Source of the DNA: Arachidicoccus rhizosphaerae
GTDB lineage: Bacteria > Bacteroidota > Bacteroidia > Chitinophagales > Chitinophagaceae
Assembly: GCF_900107765.1 (NCBI RefSeq)
Contig: NZ_FNQY01000012.1
Location: 1 to 64,000, forward strand
DNA: 64,000 bases
Direction: 5' to 3'
Both the position numbers and the translations under genes were made by a program. The stretch's first letter is position 1; the number at the start of each line of letters is the position of its first letter. Positions 40,594-51,997 of this stretch are shown in pieces. The notes beneath the pieces were generated by a model. The model worked only from the letters and a program-made list of their open reading frames with translations. It had not been told where the DNA came from and searched no databases.

Positions 40594-41427
40594 ATGACAA
40601 AAAGAAAGCTTGACGTCGTTGTTCTCTCAGATATACACCTAGGCACCTACGGCAGCCACGCCAGAGAACTACTTCAATATCTGCGATCCATTGAGCCAAC
40701 TTTACTGATCCTGAACGGCGATATAATTGATGGCTGGCAGTTTACCAAGAGGTATTTCCCGAAGAGTCATTTTGCGGTTATTAAAGAAATTCTGGATATA
40801 ATCTGCCGGGGTACGCAGGTCGTATATATTACCGGCAACCATGATGAGGTCTTGCGTAAATACACAGACACTCATATCGGCACTTTTACATTAACCGATA
40901 AATACAGCATCGACATCCATGGCAAAAAGGCATGGATATTCCATGGGGATGTCTTTGACAATACAACCCGGGGCAGTGCACGGATCCTGGCGAAGTTCGG
41001 ATCGAAAGGATATGACTTACTGATACTTTTAAACAGGGCGATCAATTATTGCATGAAAAAACTGGGTCGGGAAAAAGTCTCCTTTTCAAAAAAGGTCAAA
41101 AACGGCGTAAAGCAGGCCGTCAAATTCATTAATAAATTTGAGCAGACAATCGGGGGGCTGGCCATAGAAAACGGCTATGATTATGTTATTTGCGGGCACA
41201 TTCATCAACCTTGCATGAAGCAAATTATAACAGCCGAAGGAACAGTTACTTACTTAAATTCAGGAGACTGGATAGAAAATCTTACCGCACTGGAATACCA
41301 CAACAATCAATGGAAAATATATCATTATGATCCATTAGAATTTAATGACCTTCATCCAGAACCGCCAGTCAACTCCTCTCTCAATGTCTTTTCAGAACAG
41401 ATAGACTATAATCTACAACCTCAATAA
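40594..41427 (+). CDS. Metallophosphoesterase, LpxH-like (UDP-2,3-diacylglucosamine diphosphatase family)
   Basis: 277 aa calcineurin-type phosphoesterase with the full metal set: Asp13/His15 (SDIHLG), Asp43 (NGDIIDGW), Asn82-His83 (GNHDE), His117 (FHGD) and GHIHQP near residue 205. The arrangement SDIHLG...GDIIDGWQ...GNHDE matches the LpxH-related proteins annotated as UDP-2,3-diacylglucosamine diphosphatase. It is only 2 bases from a glycosyltransferase gene, so a role in making a glycolipid or phosphorylated envelope glycan is plausible. True LpxH activity is not shown by sequence. Confidence 0.85.
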   Translation: MTKRKLDVVVLSDIHLGTYGSHARELLQYLRSIEPTLLILNGDIIDGWQFTKRYFPKSHFAVIKEILDIICRGTQVVYITGNHDEVLRKYTDTHIGTFTLTDKYSIDIHGKKAWIFHGDVFDNTTRGSARILAKFGSKGYDLLILLNRAINYCMKKLGREKVSFSKKVKNGVKQAVKFINKFEQTIGGLAIENGYDYVICGHIHQPCMKQIITAEGTVTYLNSGDWIENLTALEYHNNQWKIYHYDPLEFNDLHPEPPVNSSLNVFSEQIDYNLQPQ

Positions 41428-41429
41428 CT

Positions 41430-42476
41430 ATGAAAATATTATATGCAATACAGGCAACCGGCAACGGTCATATCAGCAGAGCCATGGAGCTGATGCCTCA
41501 CCTGAAGCGCTATGGGCATGTGGATGTATTTCTCAGTGGGAGCAACAGTACCTTACAGGCTGACCTGCCTATAAAATTCAGAAGTCAGGGGCTTAGCCTT
41601 CAGTACAGTTGCAATGGCAAACTGAATTTCGCCAAAACAATTAAATCTTGCCAGCTGCGCAAGGCATTCAAAGAAGCCGCCAGCCTACCGGTCAAAGATT
41701 ATGACATGGTCATCAATGACTTTGAAGCCATAACCTCCATTGCATGCAATAAACAATCGGTTCCGATGATACATTTTGGACATCAGGCAAGTTTTGTTTC
41801 AGATGCCACTCCCAGACCGGACAACAAAAGCATCATAGGCGAATGGATTCTGCGCAATTATGCGCATAGCCATTTGAATCTCGGGCTTCATTTTAAGCGG
41901 TATGACCAGTTTATCCTTCCTCCCGTTATCCAGCGTTCAATCTGGGAAGCAACTCCTTCAACCGAATCCCATGTAACTGTTTATCTTCCCTCTTTTTGTG
42001 ACAAGGAATTACTGCAGCTATTCTCCGTAATCAAAAATGTACCGTTTGAAATCTTTTCCAGGCACTGCAAAGAGATCATGACATTTCAACATATTAAACT
42101 TATTCCAGTTGAAAAAGAGGCCTTCAATAAAAGTCTGATTAATAGCACGGGCATTATCACGGGAGCCGGATTTGAGACACCAGCTGAAGCGCTCTACTTG
42201 GGTAAAAAGATCATGGCTATTCCCATCGGCGGTCAGTATGAACAAAAATGCAATGCGGCCGCACTGAAAAGGTTAGGTGTAAAAACAATCAATGCGATTG
42301 TTCCGAACCAGTTTAAACAGGAGGTAGAAAACTGGCTGACCAGCCCTAATAAGGCGACCGGCCTTAAATGGCAGTCCACAGAAAAAACGGTTACGGCATT
42401 ATTTGATCTATGGGATACAGCCACCCGTAAAACGATGCTGTCCAAAAGCACCTCTCCGGAAATCGCACTCTTGTAA
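41430..42476 (+). CDS. Glycosyltransferase, MurG/GT28-like
   Basis: 348 aa GT-B-like protein. It starts with KILYAIQATGNGHISRAMELMPHL, the glycine-rich acceptor-side loop typical of MurG-like enzymes, and has GIITGAGFETPAEALYLGKKIMAIP around 245-270, the nucleotide-sugar-binding C-terminal segment. It probably transfers a sugar to a lipid or cell-envelope acceptor. Translationally coupled to the upstream phosphoesterase (2-base gap) and convergent with the dedicated FAS operon. Confidence 0.82.
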   Translation: MKILYAIQATGNGHISRAMELMPHLKRYGHVDVFLSGSNSTLQADLPIKFRSQGLSLQYSCNGKLNFAKTIKSCQLRKAFKEAASLPVKDYDMVINDFEAITSIACNKQSVPMIHFGHQASFVSDATPRPDNKSIIGEWILRNYAHSHLNLGLHFKRYDQFILPPVIQRSIWEATPSTESHVTVYLPSFCDKELLQLFSVIKNVPFEIFSRHCKEIMTFQHIKLIPVEKEAFNKSLINSTGIITGAGFETPAEALYLGKKIMAIPIGGQYEQKCNAAALKRLGVKTINAIVPNQFKQEVENWLTSPNKATGLKWQSTEKTVTALFDLWDTATRKTMLSKSTSPEIALL

Positions 42477-42598: not shown

Positions 42599-43354
42599 CT
42601 ATTTGCCAATACCACCGTCTACGCAGATTACCTGTCCGGTCATATAAGTGCTCTCATCTGAGGCCAGAAATAACGCAAGGCCGGCTACATCTTCCACCTG
42701 ACCGTATCTGCCTAGAGAAATATTTTTTAAAAATCCAGCAGAGATATCTGTATCAATTAGATGCTGGGTCATATCTGTTTGTATGAATCCCGGTGCAATT
42801 GCATTGCACCGGATCTGTTTACCCCCCAGCTCTTTGGCAACCGATTTGGTGAATCCGATGATGCCGGCCTTAGAGGCGGCATAGCTGCTTTGCCAGGAGT
42901 TACCATATATTCCCACAATGGAACTGATATTTATAATACTCCCTCGCTTAGCCTTCCCCATATGCCGGGTCACCAGCTTGGTCATATTAAAAACGCTATA
43001 AAGGTTATTAACAATAACTTCATCCCACAGTTCGTAAGAAGTTCTGGACAGCGTACTATCCTTTGAGATACCCGCATTGTTTACACAGATATCGACTTGT
43101 CCATACTCTGCAATAATTCGGTTTACAAAGGTTTCACATTGTCCAAAATCAGAAACATCCACCTTGACAGCTCTTGCAAGCCCGCGGTCTCCGCTAATGG
43201 CATTTTCAATATCCTTTATTTCCGCTTTTTTATATTTACTTTTATAGGTGATAATAACCCTGGCTCCCTGATCCGCAAACTTCTTTGCAATCGCACACCC
43301 TATCCCACGGGAGCCACCGGTAACAATCGCGACTTTGCCCTTAAGCTGTTCCAT
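42599..43354 (-). CDS. 3-oxoacyl-ACP reductase, FabG-like SDR
   Basis: 251 aa short-chain dehydrogenase. NADPH-binding TGGSRGIG (12-19), NNAG (92-95), and catalytic Ser144, Tyr158 and Lys162 (YAASK) are all present. C-terminal GQVICVDGGIG is typical of FabG. It is the last gene of the dedicated FAS operon, 12 bases after the ACP, and should reduce the beta-ketoacyl intermediate carried on that ACP. Confidence 0.9.
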   Translation of the reverse strand: MEQLKGKVAIVTGGSRGIGCAIAKKFADQGARVIITYKSKYKKAEIKDIENAISGDRGLARAVKVDVSDFGQCETFVNRIIAEYGQVDICVNNAGISKDSTLSRTSYELWDEVIVNNLYSVFNMTKLVTRHMGKAKRGSIINISSIVGIYGNSWQSSYAASKAGIIGFTKSVAKELGGKQIRCNAIAPGFIQTDMTQHLIDTDISAGFLKNISLGRYGQVEDVAGLALFLASDESTYMTGQVICVDGGIGK

Positions 43355-43366
43355 TGTTCAATCGGT

Positions 43367-43867
43367 TTATTTTTTTGCAACTTTTATTTTTGTTTCAATT
43401 GCCAGATACAGATCCTCAAAGCTCTTGAGATCATATATTTCCTCGTCTTCAATCGTGATATTAAAGGCTTGCTCCACATCCACTATGATCTCCACGAAGT
43501 CCACCGAATCAATATTTAATTCATCGATAAAACTTTTGGTGGTATCTCGCTCGATATTATCCAGCAGTTCCGGATGCTCCGTATAATTAGCAACGATTTT
43601 CTTTAACCGCTCAGTTATCTTTTTGTCAAAAGAAATTGCCTTTTTCAGGATTCTCTTCTTCGTGGCGGGCTGTGTAGCAGCCTTTTTCGCTGTAGTCTTC
43701 CCCTCGGAATCAGTTTTCGAAGTTGTTTTCTTTGTGGCCCCAGTTTTTGGACTGGGAGCGGCAACTACTTTAGGATTTTTCTTTGCCACGCCTTCGGTCT
43801 TATTAGCCTTCGCGGGTGCAGCAGCAAGAGATGCCGGCTTCTTTGAATGGGTGCTTGACGCTTTCAT
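43367..43867 (-). CDS. Acyl carrier protein with a Lys/Ala-rich N-terminal tail
   Basis: 166 aa from the ATG at 43865-43867; the frame's earlier start would be TTG three codons upstream. The last ~85 residues are an ACP: the phosphopantetheine site is Ser121 in ELNIDSVDFVEI, followed by the acidic helix III (DVEQAFNITIEDEE). The first ~75 residues are a disordered-looking tail rich in Lys, Ala, Pro and Thr (for example TKKTTSKTDSEGKTTAKKAA), resembling histone H1 tails. Ordinary ACPs are about 80 residues, so this is double length. It lies between fabI and fabG in the FAS operon, which implies a dedicated carrier. Confidence 0.87.
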   Translation of the reverse strand: MKASSTHSKKPASLAAAPAKANKTEGVAKKNPKVVAAPSPKTGATKKTTSKTDSEGKTTAKKAATQPATKKRILKKAISFDKKITERLKKIVANYTEHPELLDNIERDTTKSFIDELNIDSVDFVEIIVDVEQAFNITIEDEEIYDLKSFEDLYLAIETKIKVAKK

Positions 43868-43897
43868 ATAAATCAATTTAATAATTTAAAAGTATTT

Positions 43898-44722
43898 TTA
43901 TTTAATTTCGCCCCTCATTTCATGTATTAATTTCTCAGAGAGGCCCGTTGCGCTAAAGCCGCCATCATGAAAAATATTCTGCATGGTAATATATCGGGTA
44001 TAGTCACTAAATAACATTGCACAAAAAGAGGCGAGATCCGCTACAGGTGCATTACCCAAGGGACTCATATGATCCGCATAATCCATAAATTCCATAAACC
44101 CGTTAATACCGGTACCGGCCCTTGTGGCGACAGGAGACTGAGAAATGGTATTAACCCGGACATTCCGCCGGATTGCATAATGATAACCAAAGTTCCTGGC
44201 AATGGCTTCCAGCAGTGCTTTTGCATCGGACATCTCATTATATTCAGGAAATATCCTTTGTGCGGCGATATAAGTCATCGCAACGACACTCCCCCATTCA
44301 TTCAGTACATCCTTTTGATATGCTACTTGTAACACTTTATGAAAGCTGACTGCCGATACATCCAGCGTTTTCTGATAATATTCATAATTCAATTCCGTAT
44401 AGGGATGTTTTTTACGTATATTCAGGCTATTGGCTACACTGTGCAGGATAAAATCAATCTTTTTCTTTTTAAAATGCCTGGAGCAGAAGGCATATAATTT
44501 TTCAATATCTTCAATTTTTGTAAGATCCGCCCCAAATACAGGCGCCTGAATGTCGGCTGCCAGCTTTTCCGTATCACTAAACCTTATGGCGATTGGTAAA
44601 TTAGAAAGTACAATATCAGCTCCTTCCTGCCTACATTTAAGCGCCACTTGCCAGGCAATGGACTGTTCGTTCAATGCGCCGAAAATGATTCCTTTTTTAC
44701 CTTTTAATATCTTACTTGTCAT
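43898..44722 (-). CDS. Enoyl-ACP reductase, FabI-type
   Basis: 274 aa. The nucleotide-binding start GIIFGALNEQSIAW matches FabI's G-x5-S-I-A-W. Active-site Tyr151, Tyr161 and Lys168 have the same spacing (10 and 7) as Tyr146, Tyr156 and Lys163 of E. coli FabI. It performs the last reduction of each elongation cycle. It lies in the operon between a ketosynthase and the ACP and is more divergent than a housekeeping FabI would be (for example AMTYIAAQRIFPEYNEMSDAK). Confidence 0.88.
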   Translation of the reverse strand: MTSKILKGKKGIIFGALNEQSIAWQVALKCRQEGADIVLSNLPIAIRFSDTEKLAADIQAPVFGADLTKIEDIEKLYAFCSRHFKKKKIDFILHSVANSLNIRKKHPYTELNYEYYQKTLDVSAVSFHKVLQVAYQKDVLNEWGSVVAMTYIAAQRIFPEYNEMSDAKALLEAIARNFGYHYAIRRNVRVNTISQSPVATRAGTGINGFMEFMDYADHMSPLGNAPVADLASFCAMLFSDYTRYITMQNIFHDGGFSATGLSEKLIHEMRGEIK

Positions 44723-44758
44723 ATTAGTTTTTAATTACTCAAACTATTTGCCCTCTGC

Positions 44759-46042
44759 CTATGCTTTGAACTTTTTCAACACCAGGCAGGAGTTCACATC
44801 TCCAAATCCAAAACTGATTTTGCATACAATATCCAGCGCTATATCCATAATAGCTTTGGGCGGTACACAGTCATGTGCAATTAATTGGCCGATTTCGGGA
44901 TGCAATTCATCAGCATTGATGGACGGGTGAATAAATCCATGATAGAGCTGAAGAACGGCGGCAACTGATTCGATTGAGCCTGAAGCGCTCAAACAATGCC
45001 CAATCATAGACTTCATAGAATTAATATAAGGAAAGTCAGTTCCTTTTCTATTCAGTGCTTTTACCCAGGCATTAATTTCGGTAATATCTCCGATGGTTGA
45101 GGACAGATGCCCGGAAATCAGATCGATCTGACCGGGTAGTACCCCGCAACTTTTAAGACCGTTTCTGATACATCGAACCATACCGTTGACATTCCCAATA
45201 GTCATCGTGCCTTTGCCGCGCTGCCCTCCGGAATTAATATGGCCTCCGAGGATCTCTGCATAAATTCTGGCACCTCTTTTCTGGGCCGTGCTCAGGTTTT
45301 CCAGCACTAAGGCTCCCGCCCCCGAACTGGGCACAAAACCGGCGGCATCTTTATCCATAGGTCGGGACGCTTTTTGGGGGCGGTCATTAAACCCGTGGGC
45401 CGTAGCAAACATAGAGTCAAAAGGGCCCCATACATAAGGACTGTTACTTTCTGAGCTACCCACAAGCATCCTTGTAGCCGCACCGGACCTGATTTTCTCA
45501 AATGCCATTAAAATGGCTTCCGTCCCTGTATTACAGGCCGAAGCATTACTGGTAACCTGATTGCCCAGCCCGAGTATTTTCGCAATATATGCACTCACCG
45601 CACTATTTATCGCCTGAGGCAAAGCCCTGGGATTACCTTTCCTGGTATCCTGACCGCTCTCTCTGAGCGCAATTCCATAGTGGGTGGCCTCAATGCCATT
45701 GCTACCGGTCCCAAATATACAGCCACTGGTATAATCTGCCCCATCCGAGGCTTTAGGGAATGCCAGTCCGCTATCCTTCCAGGCCTGCGCAGCTGCAATA
45801 CAACCGTAAGTAATTCCGGTACTGAATACCTCCTGTATCTGATGCTTCTCCAAAAAAGCCAACCGGTCCTTTTCGCTTAATGCAGGAACTCCGCCAATCT
45901 GACAACGAAAAGCATGCTCCCGCAGTTCGGGATAAAATTTTATACCCGACTTCCCTTTTCTGATGGCCGATGTAAACTTCTTTACGCCTATACCATTTGG
46001 GCTTAATACTCCCAGGCCGGTAATTACAATTCTATCATTCAT
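44759..46042 (-). CDS. Beta-ketoacyl-ACP synthase (FabF-like), copy 1
   Basis: 427 aa thiolase-fold condensing enzyme. Cys170 (SNASACNTGT), His312 (ISGHLSSTIGDITE) and His349 (KSMIGHCLSASG) form the Cys-His-His triad of elongating synthases. The usual E/D-A-H-G-T motif is replaced by S-G-H-L-S-S, which is uncommon. The second synthase is directly upstream (47 bases). Possession of the nucleophile cysteine argues against a chain-length-factor role. Confidence 0.9.
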   Translation of the reverse strand: MNDRIVITGLGVLSPNGIGVKKFTSAIRKGKSGIKFYPELREHAFRCQIGGVPALSEKDRLAFLEKHQIQEVFSTGITYGCIAAAQAWKDSGLAFPKASDGADYTSGCIFGTGSNGIEATHYGIALRESGQDTRKGNPRALPQAINSAVSAYIAKILGLGNQVTSNASACNTGTEAILMAFEKIRSGAATRMLVGSSESNSPYVWGPFDSMFATAHGFNDRPQKASRPMDKDAAGFVPSSGAGALVLENLSTAQKRGARIYAEILGGHINSGGQRGKGTMTIGNVNGMVRCIRNGLKSCGVLPGQIDLISGHLSSTIGDITEINAWVKALNRKGTDFPYINSMKSMIGHCLSASGSIESVAAVLQLYHGFIHPSINADELHPEIGQLIAHDCVPPKAIMDIALDIVCKISFGFGDVNSCLVLKKFKA

Positions 46043-46089
46043 TTTAATTAAAATTCAGTTTATGGACAGGGTCACCTATTTGTCCGGTC

Positions 46090-47403
46090 TTATTTTACGC
46101 CTTCCGGCCAATGCCTTACCATAACACAGCCGGCCACATCCCCGAAACCATAAGAGGTTTTGGCAACAATATTCAGTCTTTTCTTTATCGACTTTAAGGG
46201 CACTTTTGATCTCGGCACGATAGCGGCAATTTCTTGATCCAATTGTTCCGCATTAAGGGTCGGATGAATAAACTGATCCTGTAACTGCAAAGCCGTCGCA
46301 ACCAGTTCCAACGAGGAGGACGCTGCAAAACAGTGTCCAGTCATTGATTTCAAAGCATTGATGTAGGGAAAATCATTTCCTTTTCGTTTCAAAGCACCGG
46401 CAAGCGCTTGGACTTCATACACATCCATGATATAGGACGGCAGATGCCCGCAAACAAGGTCAATTTCATCAGGGCGGATCTTAGCCGCCTCCAGGGCAAA
46501 ACCGATAACATCCTCCATACTTTGCCGGTTATTAATCGTCATCGTCCCCCCCGCCCTTTGGGCGCCACAGATCAGGCTTCCACCCAACAGTTCACCATAT
46601 ATTCTGGCACCTCTTTTTTGGGCAGATTGAAGACTTTCAAGTACCATCGCACCGCCGCCGCTTCCAGGCACCAGCCCATTAGCCCCTGTGCTCATAGGAC
46701 AACTGCCTTTTTCCGGTCTGTCATTATATCCTTTTGCCAACGCATAAAAATCATCATAGAGCGTCATTCCATCATACCCTCCCCAGACGTTATGATGACT
46801 GCTTTCTGCAGATCCCACTAAAACGATACTGGATTTCCCCTCCCTGATCCTGTTGAAGCCCTCCAGCGCTGCCTCTACTCCGGTAATACAGGAAGAAGAA
46901 TTAGTGGTTAATTGATTACCGATTCCTATTATACCTCCCAAATAGGCACTGACACCACTATTCATCGCCTGCTGAGCTGTCCGGCCTCCCATTTTACGGA
47001 CATTGCCGGTATCCACCAGGCTGATACCGTAATCAATCGCATCAATACCATTAGTGCAGGTTCCGAAAATGCAGCCATAATCCCAGGCCGCCTGACTGCT
47101 CTTACTGGGCAACAATTCCAGACCGGCATCATACCAGGCTTCAAGACCAGCCATGCATCCATAAATAATACCCGTCCCTTTCATTTTAACCAACCCGTAT
47201 TGCTTTGTAAAAGCGTCAATCTGCTTTTGCTCCAGCAGGGGCAATCCTCCTATATGACAGCGATAGTTCTGCTGTTCAAGAATTTCATGATAACGGATAC
47301 CGGAAATACCTTTTTTCAGGCCGGCCTTAAATGCCTTCAGGCCGGTGCCAATCGGGCTGCATACCCCAAGTCCCGTTATAACAACTCTAGTATTCTTACT
47401 CAT
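46090..47403 (-). CDS. Beta-ketoacyl-ACP synthase (FabF-like), copy 2
   Basis: 437 aa, homologous to the following synthase. Cys172 (TNSSSCITGV), His320 (VCGHLPSYIMDVYE) and His357 (KSMTGHCFAASS) form a complete triad. Again the A-H-G-T motif is altered (C-G-H-L-P). It begins 2 bases after the FabZ-like gene, a spacing that implies translational coupling. Two different but complete synthases in one operon suggest division of labour, for example by chain length or starter. Confidence 0.9.
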   Translation of the reverse strand: MSKNTRVVITGLGVCSPIGTGLKAFKAGLKKGISGIRYHEILEQQNYRCHIGGLPLLEQKQIDAFTKQYGLVKMKGTGIIYGCMAGLEAWYDAGLELLPSKSSQAAWDYGCIFGTCTNGIDAIDYGISLVDTGNVRKMGGRTAQQAMNSGVSAYLGGIIGIGNQLTTNSSSCITGVEAALEGFNRIREGKSSIVLVGSAESSHHNVWGGYDGMTLYDDFYALAKGYNDRPEKGSCPMSTGANGLVPGSGGGAMVLESLQSAQKRGARIYGELLGGSLICGAQRAGGTMTINNRQSMEDVIGFALEAAKIRPDEIDLVCGHLPSYIMDVYEVQALAGALKRKGNDFPYINALKSMTGHCFAASSSLELVATALQLQDQFIHPTLNAEQLDQEIAAIVPRSKVPLKSIKKRLNIVAKTSYGFGDVAGCVMVRHWPEGVK

Positions 47404-47405
47404 AA

Positions 47406-47930
47406 TTAATTAGAATTAACGACAACTCCAGACAATACCCCTTTAGCCACGAGTTGACCTGCTTCATTTTCAATTCGGACATTACATTTCAGTTTATTCA
47501 ATCTGAAAAAGACCTTTTCGGCTCTCACGAATATCTTTTCCTGAGGGCGTATTATAAATTTATAATCCATATTCGCTGAAGTCAGATAAAAAAGATGGTT
47601 CACTTTATAACCAAAAGCACTAAGATCTATGACCGTCATTGAACTTAGGGAGGCTGGCAGTTCAATGGGCAACTCGCTGAGTGTTTCAATGCCATTCCCT
47701 AATAAATACATTCCAAAAGCAAGTAGCCCGATTTGAGCCGCCGACTCCTGTAATATGGCACCCGGCACGACCGGGTTACCGGGAAAATGCCCTTTGAAAA
47801 ACATCTCCTGTTTTTTAAAGGTATATGTAGCCAAAATATGCGTACTGTCAACTTCCACAATATCCTCTATAAAACAATAGGGTTTTTTGCAAGGAAAATG
47901 TTCAATAATCAGTTCTTTGGTCACTTCCAT
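47406..47930 (-). CDS. FabZ/FabA-like 3-hydroxyacyl-ACP dehydratase
   Basis: 174 aa hot-dog-fold protein. His48 in KGHFPGNPVVPGAI and Glu62 in LQESAAQIG match the catalytic pair of FabZ. It would dehydrate the 3-hydroxyacyl-ACP made by the FabG-like reductase. Slightly longer than housekeeping FabZ (about 145-150 aa). It starts the tightly spaced core of the operon and lies 102 bases behind the acyltransferase gene. Confidence 0.87.
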   Translation of the reverse strand: MEVTKELIIEHFPCKKPYCFIEDIVEVDSTHILATYTFKKQEMFFKGHFPGNPVVPGAILQESAAQIGLLAFGMYLLGNGIETLSELPIELPASLSSMTVIDLSAFGYKVNHLFYLTSANMDYKFIIRPQEKIFVRAEKVFFRLNKLKCNVRIENEAGQLVAKGVLSGVVVNSN

Positions 47931-48032
47931 ATTATAACTTTTTTAATCACCTCAAAATTTTATCGCGCTATTTTATAGCTATTACCAGGCTTCCCGGAAT
48001 TCCTGTATGAGTCATGCTCATCAGCCCCATCT

Positions 48033-48812
48033 TCAGATAAGCGCTGCATACCTCTTATTCAACTTCCGGAGCACTGACTCCATTCTTTTGTATACGGTTT
48101 CTTTTAAAAAATTGGCATCCATATGCATACATCCGTCTGCCTGAATTTCTTTCAAAAACATCACCCTGCAAACACCTGGACGCAGGGATAAAGCACGGTT
48201 AAAATGCATCCTGTCTACACTGTCAATAAAAACAACCGGCCTTATGCTCACCCCTCTTTTAATCGCCAATTGGAACGGACCTTTGTAAAACGCTTTTAAC
48301 GGAAGTTCGCTCTCATTAAAAGTTCCTTCGGGGAAAACAAAAACCGAGGTTTTCTCTTCCAATGCCCGGTTCAGGTCGATATAGCATTTTGCCCGTGAAG
48401 CAGCGCTGCCTCTGTCAACGGTTACTGTCATTCTGCGATAAAACCAACCAAATAAAGGAATACGCCCCATCTCATCTTTTCCAAGCGGTTTATAAGGGCC
48501 CTTCATACTTGCCAGCATCAGAAAAACATCAATATATGATCTATGGTTTGCTATGTATATTGCCGGCTCGTCCGTCCAATCATCCCGCTCGGCCTCATAT
48601 TCCCATTCCAATTTAACGGCCACAGCCCATAACCAGCACCTGGCAATGCAGCCACAGATTCTATAGAACAGTTTTACGCCCACCGTTCTATTCAATAGTA
48701 ATACACCAAATGGGAACAATAAAACCATCATAAAAACAATGCCCGCCAGTGCATATGCATTATAGGCCCACAAAAACGCTTCCTGATACCATTTTAAATG
48801 CTGTTGCTCCAA
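48033..48812 (-). CDS. PlsC-like 1-acyl-glycerol-3-phosphate acyltransferase family protein
   Basis: 259 aa membrane-associated acyltransferase. Residues 17-45 are hydrophobic; the HX4D motif is His90-Asp95 (NHRSYID) and the phosphate-binding motif is FPEGTFNE with Glu162. It should transfer an acyl chain from ACP to a glycerolipid-like or other hydroxyl acceptor. Being second in the dedicated FAS operon, it is a likely end-user of the chain built there. It need not be the housekeeping PlsC. Confidence 0.87.
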   Translation of the reverse strand: MEQQHLKWYQEAFLWAYNAYALAGIVFMMVLLFPFGVLLLNRTVGVKLFYRICGCIARCWLWAVAVKLEWEYEAERDDWTDEPAIYIANHRSYIDVFLMLASMKGPYKPLGKDEMGRIPLFGWFYRRMTVTVDRGSAASRAKCYIDLNRALEEKTSVFVFPEGTFNESELPLKAFYKGPFQLAIKRGVSIRPVVFIDSVDRMHFNRALSLRPGVCRVMFLKEIQADGCMHMDANFLKETVYKRMESVLRKLNKRYAALI

Positions 48813-48858
48813 AATACTAATGCTTCATATAGTAAAATAAAATATATTAACTTTACCC

Positions 48859-50433
48859 TTATCCCTTCTTACTTTTTATTTGTTTTTGATCTTTGTCCTT
48901 TATAAAAATGCTATTATAAATAATAAAGGTCACAAAAACCAACAGGCACAAATAAGCAAACCAGTGAGGATGCGCTACAATAAAGGTTTGATAATCATTG
49001 GGGGTAATCATTACATAGCCGATCATTGCAGCAGAACTCTTATTCATGTCCGGCATCTTGCCTGTAGATTGTATCATTCCTGAATAGCCGTCATTATTAT
49101 TAATAACCAGGTCTTTTCTTGTTTCAATAGCCCGCAGCCGCGCATGAAACTGGTGCTGTTTGGCAATATATGTATCACTGAACCAACCATCATTACCCGG
49201 ATTCACCAGAAAATTTGCGCCCTGACTGACGGTGCGGTAGGCCAGATCGGGAATGGTAGATTCATTACACAGCAACATCCCGGCATTTCCAACAGGGGTC
49301 GGCAGGGGCTTATCACTTGTCCCCTCCTTAACCCTGAAGCCGGTACTGTTGTAAAAGGGGATCAACATCCCCAGAAAAGGTTTTTCGATCAGACTCAGCG
49401 CGAGCCGTTTGTCATAGCGACCAATAACTTTATGATGCGGCTCCATACAATAGATGGAATTATAGAAAATTCTGTTTTTACGGTCAAAATCGGTATTCAT
49501 ACCAATCAAATGAGTGATGTTATACCCTGTTGTAATGGAGTCCAATACCTTTAAAAAGTCGTCATCCGGTGTATAATTCCAGGGAATAGCGGACTCATAC
49601 CAGATAGTCAGGGCTGTTCCTGTACCACAAATCTGTCTGTTCATTTCAAACAGCTGCCTGGCCAGAAAATCGCCATTGGCAGGATTCCATTTAAATTGCG
49701 GGTCCAGATTCTGAGATAAGATAGCGGCCTTGAAAGGCTTTTCTTTTTTTATGGCAATATCTTCCTGAAGCCGGTCCTCATAGTTATTTAAAATTACAGC
49801 GCCGAGTAACAGGCTACCCAGGATTATGCCCACGGGAACTATCAGCATCCTCCATTTTTTATAATAGAAGAAATAAGCAGTACAATAACTTAAAAAGACC
49901 ACTAAAAAAGTCAGCAATAACGGTCCGGTAATCGTCGTAATTTGTGCAAGATATAGATTCTGCGCCAAAGAGATATAGGAAACAAACAAGCAAAGCGCAA
50001 ATCCTTTGGCAAAATAGATCATAAAAGCATCAACCAACACCCAGAACGAAGACAGATAGATTCCGTTGACAAGCCATTCCAGTTTATATCGTTTTTTTCT
50101 TTTAAGGAACAAAATAATCCATCCCAAAATACCGGCATATAGCGCAAAAATAACAGTAAATATCAATGTGATACCGACACCGAGTAAAACCCCTTTACCC
50201 GTAAATTTATCTGCACCGCCTATAATCCAGAAAAAATTCAGTACAGCGGTAACTCCGCCAACAAATGCTCCTCTTTTGAAAGCCTCCGCCGGCTTATCAA
50301 TATCCATAAACCCGTAAAATACCAAAGCATAAACGATCCAATTCAAAGGTGTGTCAGTCATTTGAATGGACATCGTAATGGGAATGGCACTCAATAATAA
50401 TATCCAGTACTTTTTATTCAATTTTATGTGCAT
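48859..50433 (-). CDS. Apolipoprotein N-acyltransferase-like nitrilase-fold protein
   Basis: 524 aa from the ATG at 50431-50433 (the longer frame would need a TTG start and adds a non-membrane stretch). An N-terminal block of about seven membrane segments (~10-225) is followed by a periplasmic carbon-nitrogen hydrolase domain. The Glu-Lys-Cys triad is visible: Glu280 (WYESAIPW), Lys342 (YDKRLALSL), Cys389 (LLCNEST). The usual W-P-E-S is W-Y-E-S. It is the first gene of the dedicated FAS operon, so it may N-acylate a specific amine, and not be the general Lnt. Confidence 0.85.
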   Translation of the reverse strand: MHIKLNKKYWILLLSAIPITMSIQMTDTPLNWIVYALVFYGFMDIDKPAEAFKRGAFVGGVTAVLNFFWIIGGADKFTGKGVLLGVGITLIFTVIFALYAGILGWIILFLKRKKRYKLEWLVNGIYLSSFWVLVDAFMIYFAKGFALCLFVSYISLAQNLYLAQITTITGPLLLTFLVVFLSYCTAYFFYYKKWRMLIVPVGIILGSLLLGAVILNNYEDRLQEDIAIKKEKPFKAAILSQNLDPQFKWNPANGDFLARQLFEMNRQICGTGTALTIWYESAIPWNYTPDDDFLKVLDSITTGYNITHLIGMNTDFDRKNRIFYNSIYCMEPHHKVIGRYDKRLALSLIEKPFLGMLIPFYNSTGFRVKEGTSDKPLPTPVGNAGMLLCNESTIPDLAYRTVSQGANFLVNPGNDGWFSDTYIAKQHQFHARLRAIETRKDLVINNNDGYSGMIQSTGKMPDMNKSSAAMIGYVMITPNDYQTFIVAHPHWFAYLCLLVFVTFIIYNSIFIKDKDQKQIKSKKG

Positions 50434-50544
50434 TTTACGTAATTCAGTTGGGGCAGCTTTAAAAATGTTATAAACAGTAAATAATCCCAATTTACCAGCA
50501 GAAAAATAAAATCAATTAAACATCACCATGCCTTTGCATTATAT

Positions 50545-50605: not shown

Positions 50606-51997
50606 CTACTTCTTAACAAATGTCACTGATTGACTGGTTCCATTGTCAGTGATTACCTGTAAAATATAGACGCCTGCGATTAGTTTAGTTACATCTACCT
50701 TATTGGAAGAATCAACCACGCCTTTTGCTACGTTTGTTCCACCGAGAGAAACAATACGGTATGCACTTCCAGCTTTTACTCCCTTAACAGTTAAATATCT
50801 GGATGCGGCCGGATTTGGATAAACGGATAATGATGAAGCGGCATCCGCCAAGGTAACATTCACACTATTGGAATAACTAACCGCCCCTTCTTTTGAGACT
50901 TCACCCACTCGGTAAACAGCCTTAGTAGCAGGTGTTACGTCAGTAAAGCTATAATTCAGCGTAGTTGTGCTGTAGCCGCCATTAGCTTTGCTGGCTACTG
51001 TTCCCAGTGTCTGATAGCTGCTGCCACCATTCACACTTCTTTCAATAGTAAATTCTTTATTGTTCAGCTCGGTTTCAGTTGCCCACGAAAGAACTACTGT
51101 ACCTTTATTAACTGTTACCTGCAGACCGGCTGGACTCCATTTAACAGGAAGGCTGGCAGTAGCGATATCTGGTCCAGTAGCAATGAAAGGCATACCGTGA
51201 TCAAAGTGATTACCTCCATTGACAGCCACTGGATCAGGGTTCCCTTCTGAAGCATGATCCTTGATTCGATTCTGTCCTCCTTCAAAAGTATTGAAGTTAA
51301 TGGTCTGTTCAGCTATAGTCCCTGGACTTTGTCCATCCCATGCAGCAGTAGTCGTTAATAGCCTGAAAGAATAGACTGAGTCTGGAAGTATAGTGCTTCC
51401 AGGCATAATAGCAAACTTAAGTGCCCCTTTCATATAGTTATAGTCGCCTGAAACAAATCCCGGTACGGTTGTACCATCAAGTGTAATACCGGTCGCATTA
51501 GAAGTAACCACTTTGCCGCCAAAATCAATTGTATGAGAGGCGGTTGTTGCAGTTGGTCCTGCATAAGCACCGAGTCCGGAATAATCTGTAAGGCCTGAAG
51601 GCGTATAATCACCTTCTGTCAAAGAACTGAAATTTCTCGCTAAAACCCAGTCCTTTCCGATTGAATCCGTATTAATTGTCACCCACGCCAATTGATAGTT
51701 AGGGCTCTGAGCCTGTGAGGTTCCGCCAGCACCTGCTACAAAGGCCTGCCCATTGGCATTACCTCTGGCATATTGAAGTACAATTGTTCCATTTCCCTGC
51801 GTTTTAAAAAATGTCCACATACCGAGCGACATTTCCAGGTCAATAGGTTGGCGATCATTTTTTACAAATGAACCATTTGTTTTTAATACACTTTGGCTGG
51901 CATCATCTTTCCATACATAATCCCCCATACCAAAGGTTCCTGCCTTTGCAAGGGCTATCGCAAAGACAGCGATAAAGAGTGTAAAAATCTTTTTCAT
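50606..51997 (-). CDS. Secreted protein with type IX (type A) sorting domain
   Basis: 463 aa. Signal peptide (1-19), a beta-rich N-terminal part, a domain around 295-385 resembling the fibronectin-like segment often placed before the sorting domain (VVLSWATETELNNKEFTIERS), and the Por secretion C-terminal sorting domain (~390-463: SLSVYPNPAA ... GVYILQVITDNG ... SVTFVKK). It is exported by T9SS to the surface or medium; function is unknown. It has no neighbouring operon partner. Confidence 0.88.
   Translation of the reverse strand: MKKIFTLFIAVFAIALAKAGTFGMGDYVWKDDASQSVLKTNGSFVKNDRQPIDLEMSLGMWTFFKTQGNGTIVLQYARGNANGQAFVAGAGGTSQAQSPNYQLAWVTINTDSIGKDWVLARNFSSLTEGDYTPSGLTDYSGLGAYAGPTATTASHTIDFGGKVVTSNATGITLDGTTVPGFVSGDYNYMKGALKFAIMPGSTILPDSVYSFRLLTTTAAWDGQSPGTIAEQTINFNTFEGGQNRIKDHASEGNPDPVAVNGGNHFDHGMPFIATGPDIATASLPVKWSPAGLQVTVNKGTVVLSWATETELNNKEFTIERSVNGGSSYQTLGTVASKANGGYSTTTLNYSFTDVTPATKAVYRVGEVSKEGAVSYSNSVNVTLADAASSLSVYPNPAASRYLTVKGVKAGSAYRIVSLGGTNVAKGVVDSSNKVDVTKLIAGVYILQVITDNGTSQSVTFVKK

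Follow-up and report, generated by a model that had tools for sequence, protein, structure and literature searches.

The window analysed here is a 64,000-nucleotide stretch of the Arachidicoccus rhizosphaerae genome (contig NZ_FNQY01000012.1, positions 1 to 64,000), and the element under study is an operon that encodes a set of fatty-acid synthase (FAS) enzymes together with two acyltransferase-like proteins, one of them resembling the N-acyltransferase Lnt (Table 1). A sequence-only reading had described eight open reading frames (ORFs) between 42,599 and 50,433. All eight were found, on the minus strand and in the order claimed, and searches with Pfam and NCBIfam models bore out every family name. 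The interval was too short, as the unit reaches upstream to a secreted protein encoded one gene before the Lnt-like gene on the same strand. The Lnt-like protein most likely starts at the ATG at 50,433, where the A. ginsenosidivorans protein also starts; residue numbers below refer to the 543-residue ORF.

The Lnt-like protein passed the TIGR00546 model (160.6 bits against a curated cut-off of 132.9). The two ketosynthases (KSs), FabI, FabZ and the acyl carrier protein (ACP) are kin of housekeeping families that scored under the respective equivalog cut-offs, and FabG passed only a subfamily model in these scans. As had been read from the letters, catalytic residues are in place: C172, H320 and H357 in KS1, the same in KS2, and E299, K361 and C408 in the Lnt-like protein, while inspection by eye found the Y-x-K of FabI and FabG, the His/Glu of FabZ and the DSVD of the ACP intact. 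Neither FabD nor FabH is in the operon, also as noted before. Because the same gene order recurs in another Arachidicoccus species and, partly rearranged, in three genomes that belong to two other genera, the arrangement is not a matter of chance, and we regard the operon as real with virtual certainty.

Table 1. Features of the FAS operon and of the secreted partner upstream of it (window coordinates).
Feature	Coordinates	Strand	Remarks
FabG-like ketoacyl-ACP reductase, last gene	42599..43354	-	family match
ACP, DSVD phosphopantetheine site, ~80-residue K/A-rich N-terminal extension	43367..43876	-	likely ATG start 43867
FabI-like enoyl-ACP reductase	43898..44722	-	family match
KS2, active-type ketosynthase	44759..46042	-	Cys-His-His intact
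KS1, ketosynthase paralogue	46090..47403	-	Cys-His-His intact here
FabZ-like hydroxyacyl-ACP dehydratase	47406..47930	-	family match
PlsC-like acyltransferase	48033..48812	-	family match
Lnt-like N-acyltransferase (Lnt2), LNT_N + CN_hydrolase	48859..50433	-	543-aa ORF ends at 50490
Secreted partner	50606..51997	-	plain signal peptide, DYVWKDDASQ, T9SS type A tail, no lipobox cysteine
Partner T9SS type A sorting domain, residues 392-463	50609..50824	-	TIGR04183 / PF18962
Partner N-terminal WRW domain, ~residues 20-218	51344..51940	-	hhalign 97.8%

One possibility is that these are simply the FAS-II genes of the cell, since the enzymes are of FAS type and their active sites are intact. The same genome, however, carries a FabF gene beside a normal ACP (contig C27), a further KS (C5) and another FabI (C39), to which the FabI of the operon is 63% identical. 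It also encodes two PF01553 (PlsC-type) acyltransferases besides that of the operon, and the operon is present in only two of six sampled genomes of the genus. Because of the separate FabF, KS and FabI genes, the FAS set of the operon is an additional one, and the housekeeping explanation is scarcely credible. The proposal of a dedicated FAS, which would have fallen had this been the only FAS-II set in the genome, was thus upheld.

The secreted partner is the member of the unit that had been overlooked. Its sorting domain, of the kind recognised by the type IX secretion system (T9SS), scored above the cut-offs of both models (36.5 bits against 23 for TIGR04183 and 30.1 against 27 for PF18962), and the T9SS core protein SprA is present. 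Its N-terminal region matched a profile of 27 WRW domains in hhalign (probability 97.8%, E 7e-13). The WRW domain is an undescribed family that we defined in this analysis; it is N-terminal and carries the motif YRWRNDDG-x-ET-x-ATWKA about 6 to 12 residues past the signal peptide, and no Pfam or NCBIfam model covers the region. Most of the nine WRW proteins that were scanned have a C-terminal T9SS sorting domain, one has a dockerin-like domain instead, and the middle of the protein varies (Ig_7, PKD, CBM_4_9). The precursors have no cysteine from the apparent cleavage site to the motif, and no lipobox.

The canonical WRW domain is predicted to be all-beta, with a predicted local distance difference test (pLDDT) score of 89. 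A lipid-binding fold was considered, but the Foldseek matches to RhoGDI, PDE-delta and UNC119 were weak (E 0.016 for the best of them, with none reaching 0.001), so this candidate was dropped. In VIA-align the structure reached Z scores of 6.7 at most, spread over many beta-sandwich folds. Because the matches are weak and of a generic beta-sandwich kind, we left the fold unassigned.

The association between the two genes extends well beyond the window. At 40 of 44 Lnt-like loci (39 from a systematic check plus L240, which lies in another family of the class) a WRW protein is encoded next or next but one to the Lnt-like gene, and the two reading frames often share a few bases; of 21 classical Lnt loci that were fetched with flanks, not one has such a neighbour. 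As to the exceptions, one locus (L177) lies on a 4-kb contig whose truncated upstream ORF has a sorting tail at its end, one genome (G396) is 66% complete, and two genomes (G186 and G103) have one Lnt-like gene each and two to four WRW genes elsewhere, an arrangement that suggests an enzyme with several substrates. Among 396 genomes of the family Chitinophagaceae, and with no correction for kinship, the Lnt-like protein occurred in 39, WRW proteins in 38, both in 37 and one alone in three. In the sole genome with WRW only, a fragment of 52 Lnt residues is still left, no more than about 1 kb away from the WRW gene. Within the genus of the window the distribution is patchy yet concordant (both in three genomes, neither in three), and outside the family, in G514 (the L240 locus), a WRW gene comes straight after the Lnt-like gene. 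Where a genome has two pairs, enzyme and partner agreed, in 7 of 8 pairs, on the foreign pair or pairs to which they are closest, a pattern that would not arise from the species tree alone. Taken from these patterns in sequence, it is very likely that the Lnt-like and WRW proteins are functionally linked.

Two further arrangements were seen at such loci. At L200 and L201 a single Lnt-like gene is flanked by WRW genes on both sides. In G269 (L164:12972-14342) the WRW partner has a dockerin-like domain at its end in place of a T9SS tail, and a second T9SS protein is encoded between partner and Lnt.

Dedicated sorting pairs are known, for example exosortase/PEP-CTERM and single-target sortases. 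The Lnt-WRW pair is like them in that a membrane enzyme is tied by presence and neighbourhood to proteins that share one terminal domain while the rest of the protein varies. It differs in that the enzyme is an Lnt-type acyltransferase rather than a transpeptidase and the candidate recognition domain is N-terminal, not C-terminal. We found no paper in the literature that links Lnt to T9SS cargo.

To our knowledge, Lnt is known only as the final enzyme of lipoprotein maturation, with a diacylated cysteine as the acceptor. The Lnt-like proteins form a clade separate from classical Lnt. Like E. coli Lnt (PDB 5n6h, 5xhq), they have an LNT_N membrane domain, a nitrilase domain and an E-K-C triad: E299-K361-C408 and E369 correspond to E. 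coli E267-K335-C387 and E343, and none of the 43 Lnt-like sequences in the alignment departs from the triad or from the fourth glutamate. Because of this invariance, the acyl-enzyme chemistry is likely retained. The position after the nucleophile (E. coli Y388), on the other hand, is Asn in 41 of 43 Lnt-like proteins and Tyr in 21 of 21 classical ones (C-N-E versus C-Y-E), and the classical lid motif LVPGVE is replaced by motifs of the ALSLIE or LLSFIE type. In E. coli Lnt the Y388W substitution abolishes activity although the acyl-enzyme is still formed (PMC5500890), which places this position at the acceptor step.

One explanation for these data is that the Lnt-like protein is a second, general lipoprotein N-acyltransferase, a backup Lnt, and its homology above the TIGR00546 cut-off is consistent with this. 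The genomes concerned, however, already encode Lnb, the lipoprotein N-acyltransferase of Bacteroides, which is distinct from Lnt in sequence and predicted structure (PMC13103446). Among 101 relatives in the order, classical Lnt (34 genomes over the cut-off) and Lnb (60 genomes) are almost mutually exclusive, with two genomes having both; Lnb was present in 7 of 7 genomes with the Lnt-like protein versus 2 of the 34 with classical Lnt. Lnb is an N-acylation enzyme of Bacteroidota that is encoded alongside the Lnt-like protein and not instead of it, and it probably performs the N-acylation of lipoproteins in these genomes. With partners that lack a lipobox, C-N-E in place of C-Y-E and a near-perfect coupling to WRW proteins, a backup role is very improbable, and we rejected a housekeeping Lnt because Lnb is encoded.

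It could also be speculated that the nitrilase domain hydrolyses or otherwise processes an amide on the partner, as an amidase would, and transfers no acyl chain. Membership of the CN_hydrolase superfamily and the replacement of the Y388 residue and the lid motif would fit such an activity; this is quite unlikely, however, as the LNT_N membrane domain and the full E-K-C triad are retained and one subclade has gained a FAS, which points to acyl chemistry. The retained triad, the changed C-N-E and lid, the absence of cysteine from WRW precursors and the presence of Lnb together suggest that the enzyme derives from Lnt but acts on another acceptor, for which the WRW protein is the simplest candidate.

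The subclade with a FAS comprises five genomes of three genera: that of the window, A. ginsenosidivorans (G002), G269, G192 and G112. Their Lnts form one clade (Shimodaira-Hasegawa-like approximate likelihood ratio test, SH-aLRT, 100; five members), each has a WRW-type gene next or next but one upstream, and FabZ-KS-KS-FabI-ACP genes were found at these five alone among the Lnt-like loci. In A. ginsenosidivorans (L037) the genes likewise run Lnt-FabZ-KS1-KS2-FabI-ACP-FabG, each protein being about 70-83% identical; PlsC is absent, and KS1 is split into two frames by a genuine frameshift or an assembly error (L037:8864-10170). In G269, G192 and G112 the system is partly rearranged, with some of the FAS genes on the opposite strand; the notion that the operon is confined to two Arachidicoccus genomes was abandoned on account of these re-oriented versions. 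FabG was found in two of the five loci (both Arachidicoccus) and not in the other three, and PlsC in two of five; in G269 a relative of PlsC is found close to the FAS genes. At all five loci the ACP carries long lysine/alanine-rich extensions, N-terminal throughout and in G112 C-terminal as well (43367-43876 in the window; L037, L164, L165 and L166), compared with ACPs of about 82-85 residues in related clusters. These extensions resemble histone-like tails.

Another possibility is that the Lnt-like and WRW proteins cooperate while the FAS genes are mere neighbours that make something unrelated. The split strands in G112, G192 and G269 would allow this, and kin of the KS, FabZ and ACP genes do occur in unrelated clusters. 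However, all five Lnts of a strongly supported clade adjoin FAS genes, no other Lnt-like locus has any such genes, and in Arachidicoccus the FAS genes are closely spaced on one strand. We therefore consider a chance neighbourhood improbable.

The two KSs are about 50% identical. KS2 has its Cys-His-His intact at all five loci. KS1 keeps its catalytic residues in both Arachidicoccus, but in its counterparts Cys-His-His has become His/Ser/Thr in G269, Gly/Thr with the third His retained in G192, and Ser/Ser/Ala in G112. Because catalytic residues have been lost in three genomes while the other KS is intact, KS1 is probably a partner of KS2 of the chain-length-factor (CLF) type, and the earlier view of two plain, active ketosynthases is weakened. 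Type II polyketide and aryl polyene synthases use KS-CLF pairs. The resemblance lies in adjacent KS homologues of which one lacks catalytic residues in three of five genomes; the operon differs in having FabI, so that the chain would be fully reduced, and in the triad that Arachidicoccus KS1 keeps.

The nearest outside kin of KS1 and KS2 lie in FabZ-KS-ACP-phosphopantetheinyl transferase (PPTase) blocks, within a widespread Bacteroidota cluster that also has a flavin adenine dinucleotide (FAD) enzyme, a methyltransferase, a type III polyketide synthase (PKS) and a short-chain dehydrogenase/reductase (SDR), and beside flexirubin (Dar) genes. In the KS tree the nine KSs of the FAS operons group together with an SH-aLRT of 97; the four flexirubin KSs fall outside this group, as do most KSs of type III PKS clusters. 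The operon shares with these blocks the order FabZ-KS-ACP, a KS about 50% identical to KS2 and a GHL-type second His motif. It lacks the type III PKS, DarB/DarG/DarH, methyltransferase, FAD enzyme and PPTase, and has instead a duplicated KS, a true FabI, an extended ACP and the Lnt-like gene with its WRW partner. No operon gene fits the flexirubin/dialkylresorcinol proteins DarB, DarG or DarH, with only a trace match of DarB to KS2 (L042 is a contrasting flexirubin locus), and no type III PKS, methyltransferase or FAD enzyme is encoded among the operon genes and their two downstream neighbours, although all three are present at most KS-kin loci. A flexirubin or type III PKS cluster was thus rejected, with kinship limited to the FabZ-KS-ACP core. 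Because the KS kin sit in type III PKS and flexirubin clusters, the operon appears to be a FAS block taken over from secondary metabolism for a new use, and the set is not as unmatchable to known clusters as had been stated. The widespread cluster itself runs FAD enzyme-methyltransferase-type III PKS-SDR-FabZ-KS-ACP-PPTase (L070-L147), with more than 500 KS relatives among the matches listed.

This kinship bears on the nature of the product, for which either a special lipid or an N-acylated compound had been suggested. The chain might go to a small molecule or special lipid (an N-acyl amine, an ornithine-type lipid or another aminolipid) through the Lnt-like and PlsC-like enzymes, and the WRW protein might then bind or export the lipid. 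Kin FAS blocks normally belong to small-molecule clusters, and the PlsC-like protein is weakly similar to OlsA models. On the other hand, some 35 loci pair Lnt-like and WRW genes but have none of these FAS genes, so that the FAS appears as an add-on to an existing Lnt-WRW system, and the operon has no amino-acid-activating or small-molecule tailoring genes. We consider this explanation unlikely. An N-acylated product remains plausible; its acceptor is more likely the adjoining secreted WRW protein than an unspecified special lipid.

We therefore propose, at somewhat short of an even chance, that the dedicated FAS makes a saturated chain and that the Lnt-like enzyme puts it on the partner. FabG, FabZ, FabI and the KS2-KS1 pair would assemble a saturated chain of defined length on the ACP of the operon, with FabD and FabH borrowed from the cell. 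The ACP is located in the cytoplasm, whereas Lnt has its catalytic domain in the periplasm. As Lnt moreover draws its acyl chains from phospholipids (PMC5500890), the chain would first have to be moved into phospholipid, a step for which the PlsC-like protein is the natural candidate where present, with housekeeping acyltransferases serving elsewhere. The Lnt-like enzyme would take up the chain as a thioester on C408 and transfer it to an amine of the partner, most likely that of the N-terminus left after cleavage by signal peptidase I, and the acylated partner would be exported by the T9SS and tethered by its lipid.

We lean, by a little, towards the WRW protein being acylated at all; if it is, the FAS quite probably supplies the chain. 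The wider statement is put forward with slightly more reserve than the proposal for the operon: an Lnt-family enzyme would N-acylate cysteine-less, signal peptidase I-processed, T9SS-secreted WRW proteins, and one subtype would have its own KS/CLF-type FAS for a custom chain.

Several observations weigh against these proposals. The sequences show the gene content, the well-supported pairing of enzyme and partner, the intact triad, the changed residue on the acceptor side and the monophyly of the FAS-linked subtype, whereas we infer the acceptor, the phospholipid relay, the type of chain, its N-terminal attachment and the tethering; a conserved neighbourhood is no proof of contact between enzyme and substrate; and the WRW family does not consist of lipoproteins. 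The mature N-terminus, as predicted, enters a beta-strand almost at once, which would leave little free linker to reach the Lnt active site. Few WRW members are as diverged as the partner in the window and its orthologue in A. ginsenosidivorans, and the predicted structure of the former is too poor for use (pLDDT 59). The Lnt tree is a quick one with long branches. Finally, PlsC and FabG are each present in only two of the five FAS loci, and three of the five hold their FAS genes in split orientations.

If the proposal is correct, there is a second class of exported proteins that bacteria lipidate, by way of a recognisable N-terminal domain, and some devote a whole fatty-acid synthase to protein lipidation. 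This would be a possible route for holding type IX cargo at the surface. The WRW domain is searchable and the enzyme-substrate hypothesis is defined, and the role of the residue beside the Lnt nucleophile in the choice of acceptor becomes testable.

A plasmid search gave no match, and promoter and terminator scans gave counts close to those of shuffled sequences. An LpxH-like phosphoesterase gene and an MJ1255-type glycosyltransferase gene (40,594-42,476) converge on the operon; we excluded them from it because they face it and because, in A. ginsenosidivorans, they do not follow FabG. In L104 genes of these two types adjoin a type III PKS cluster.

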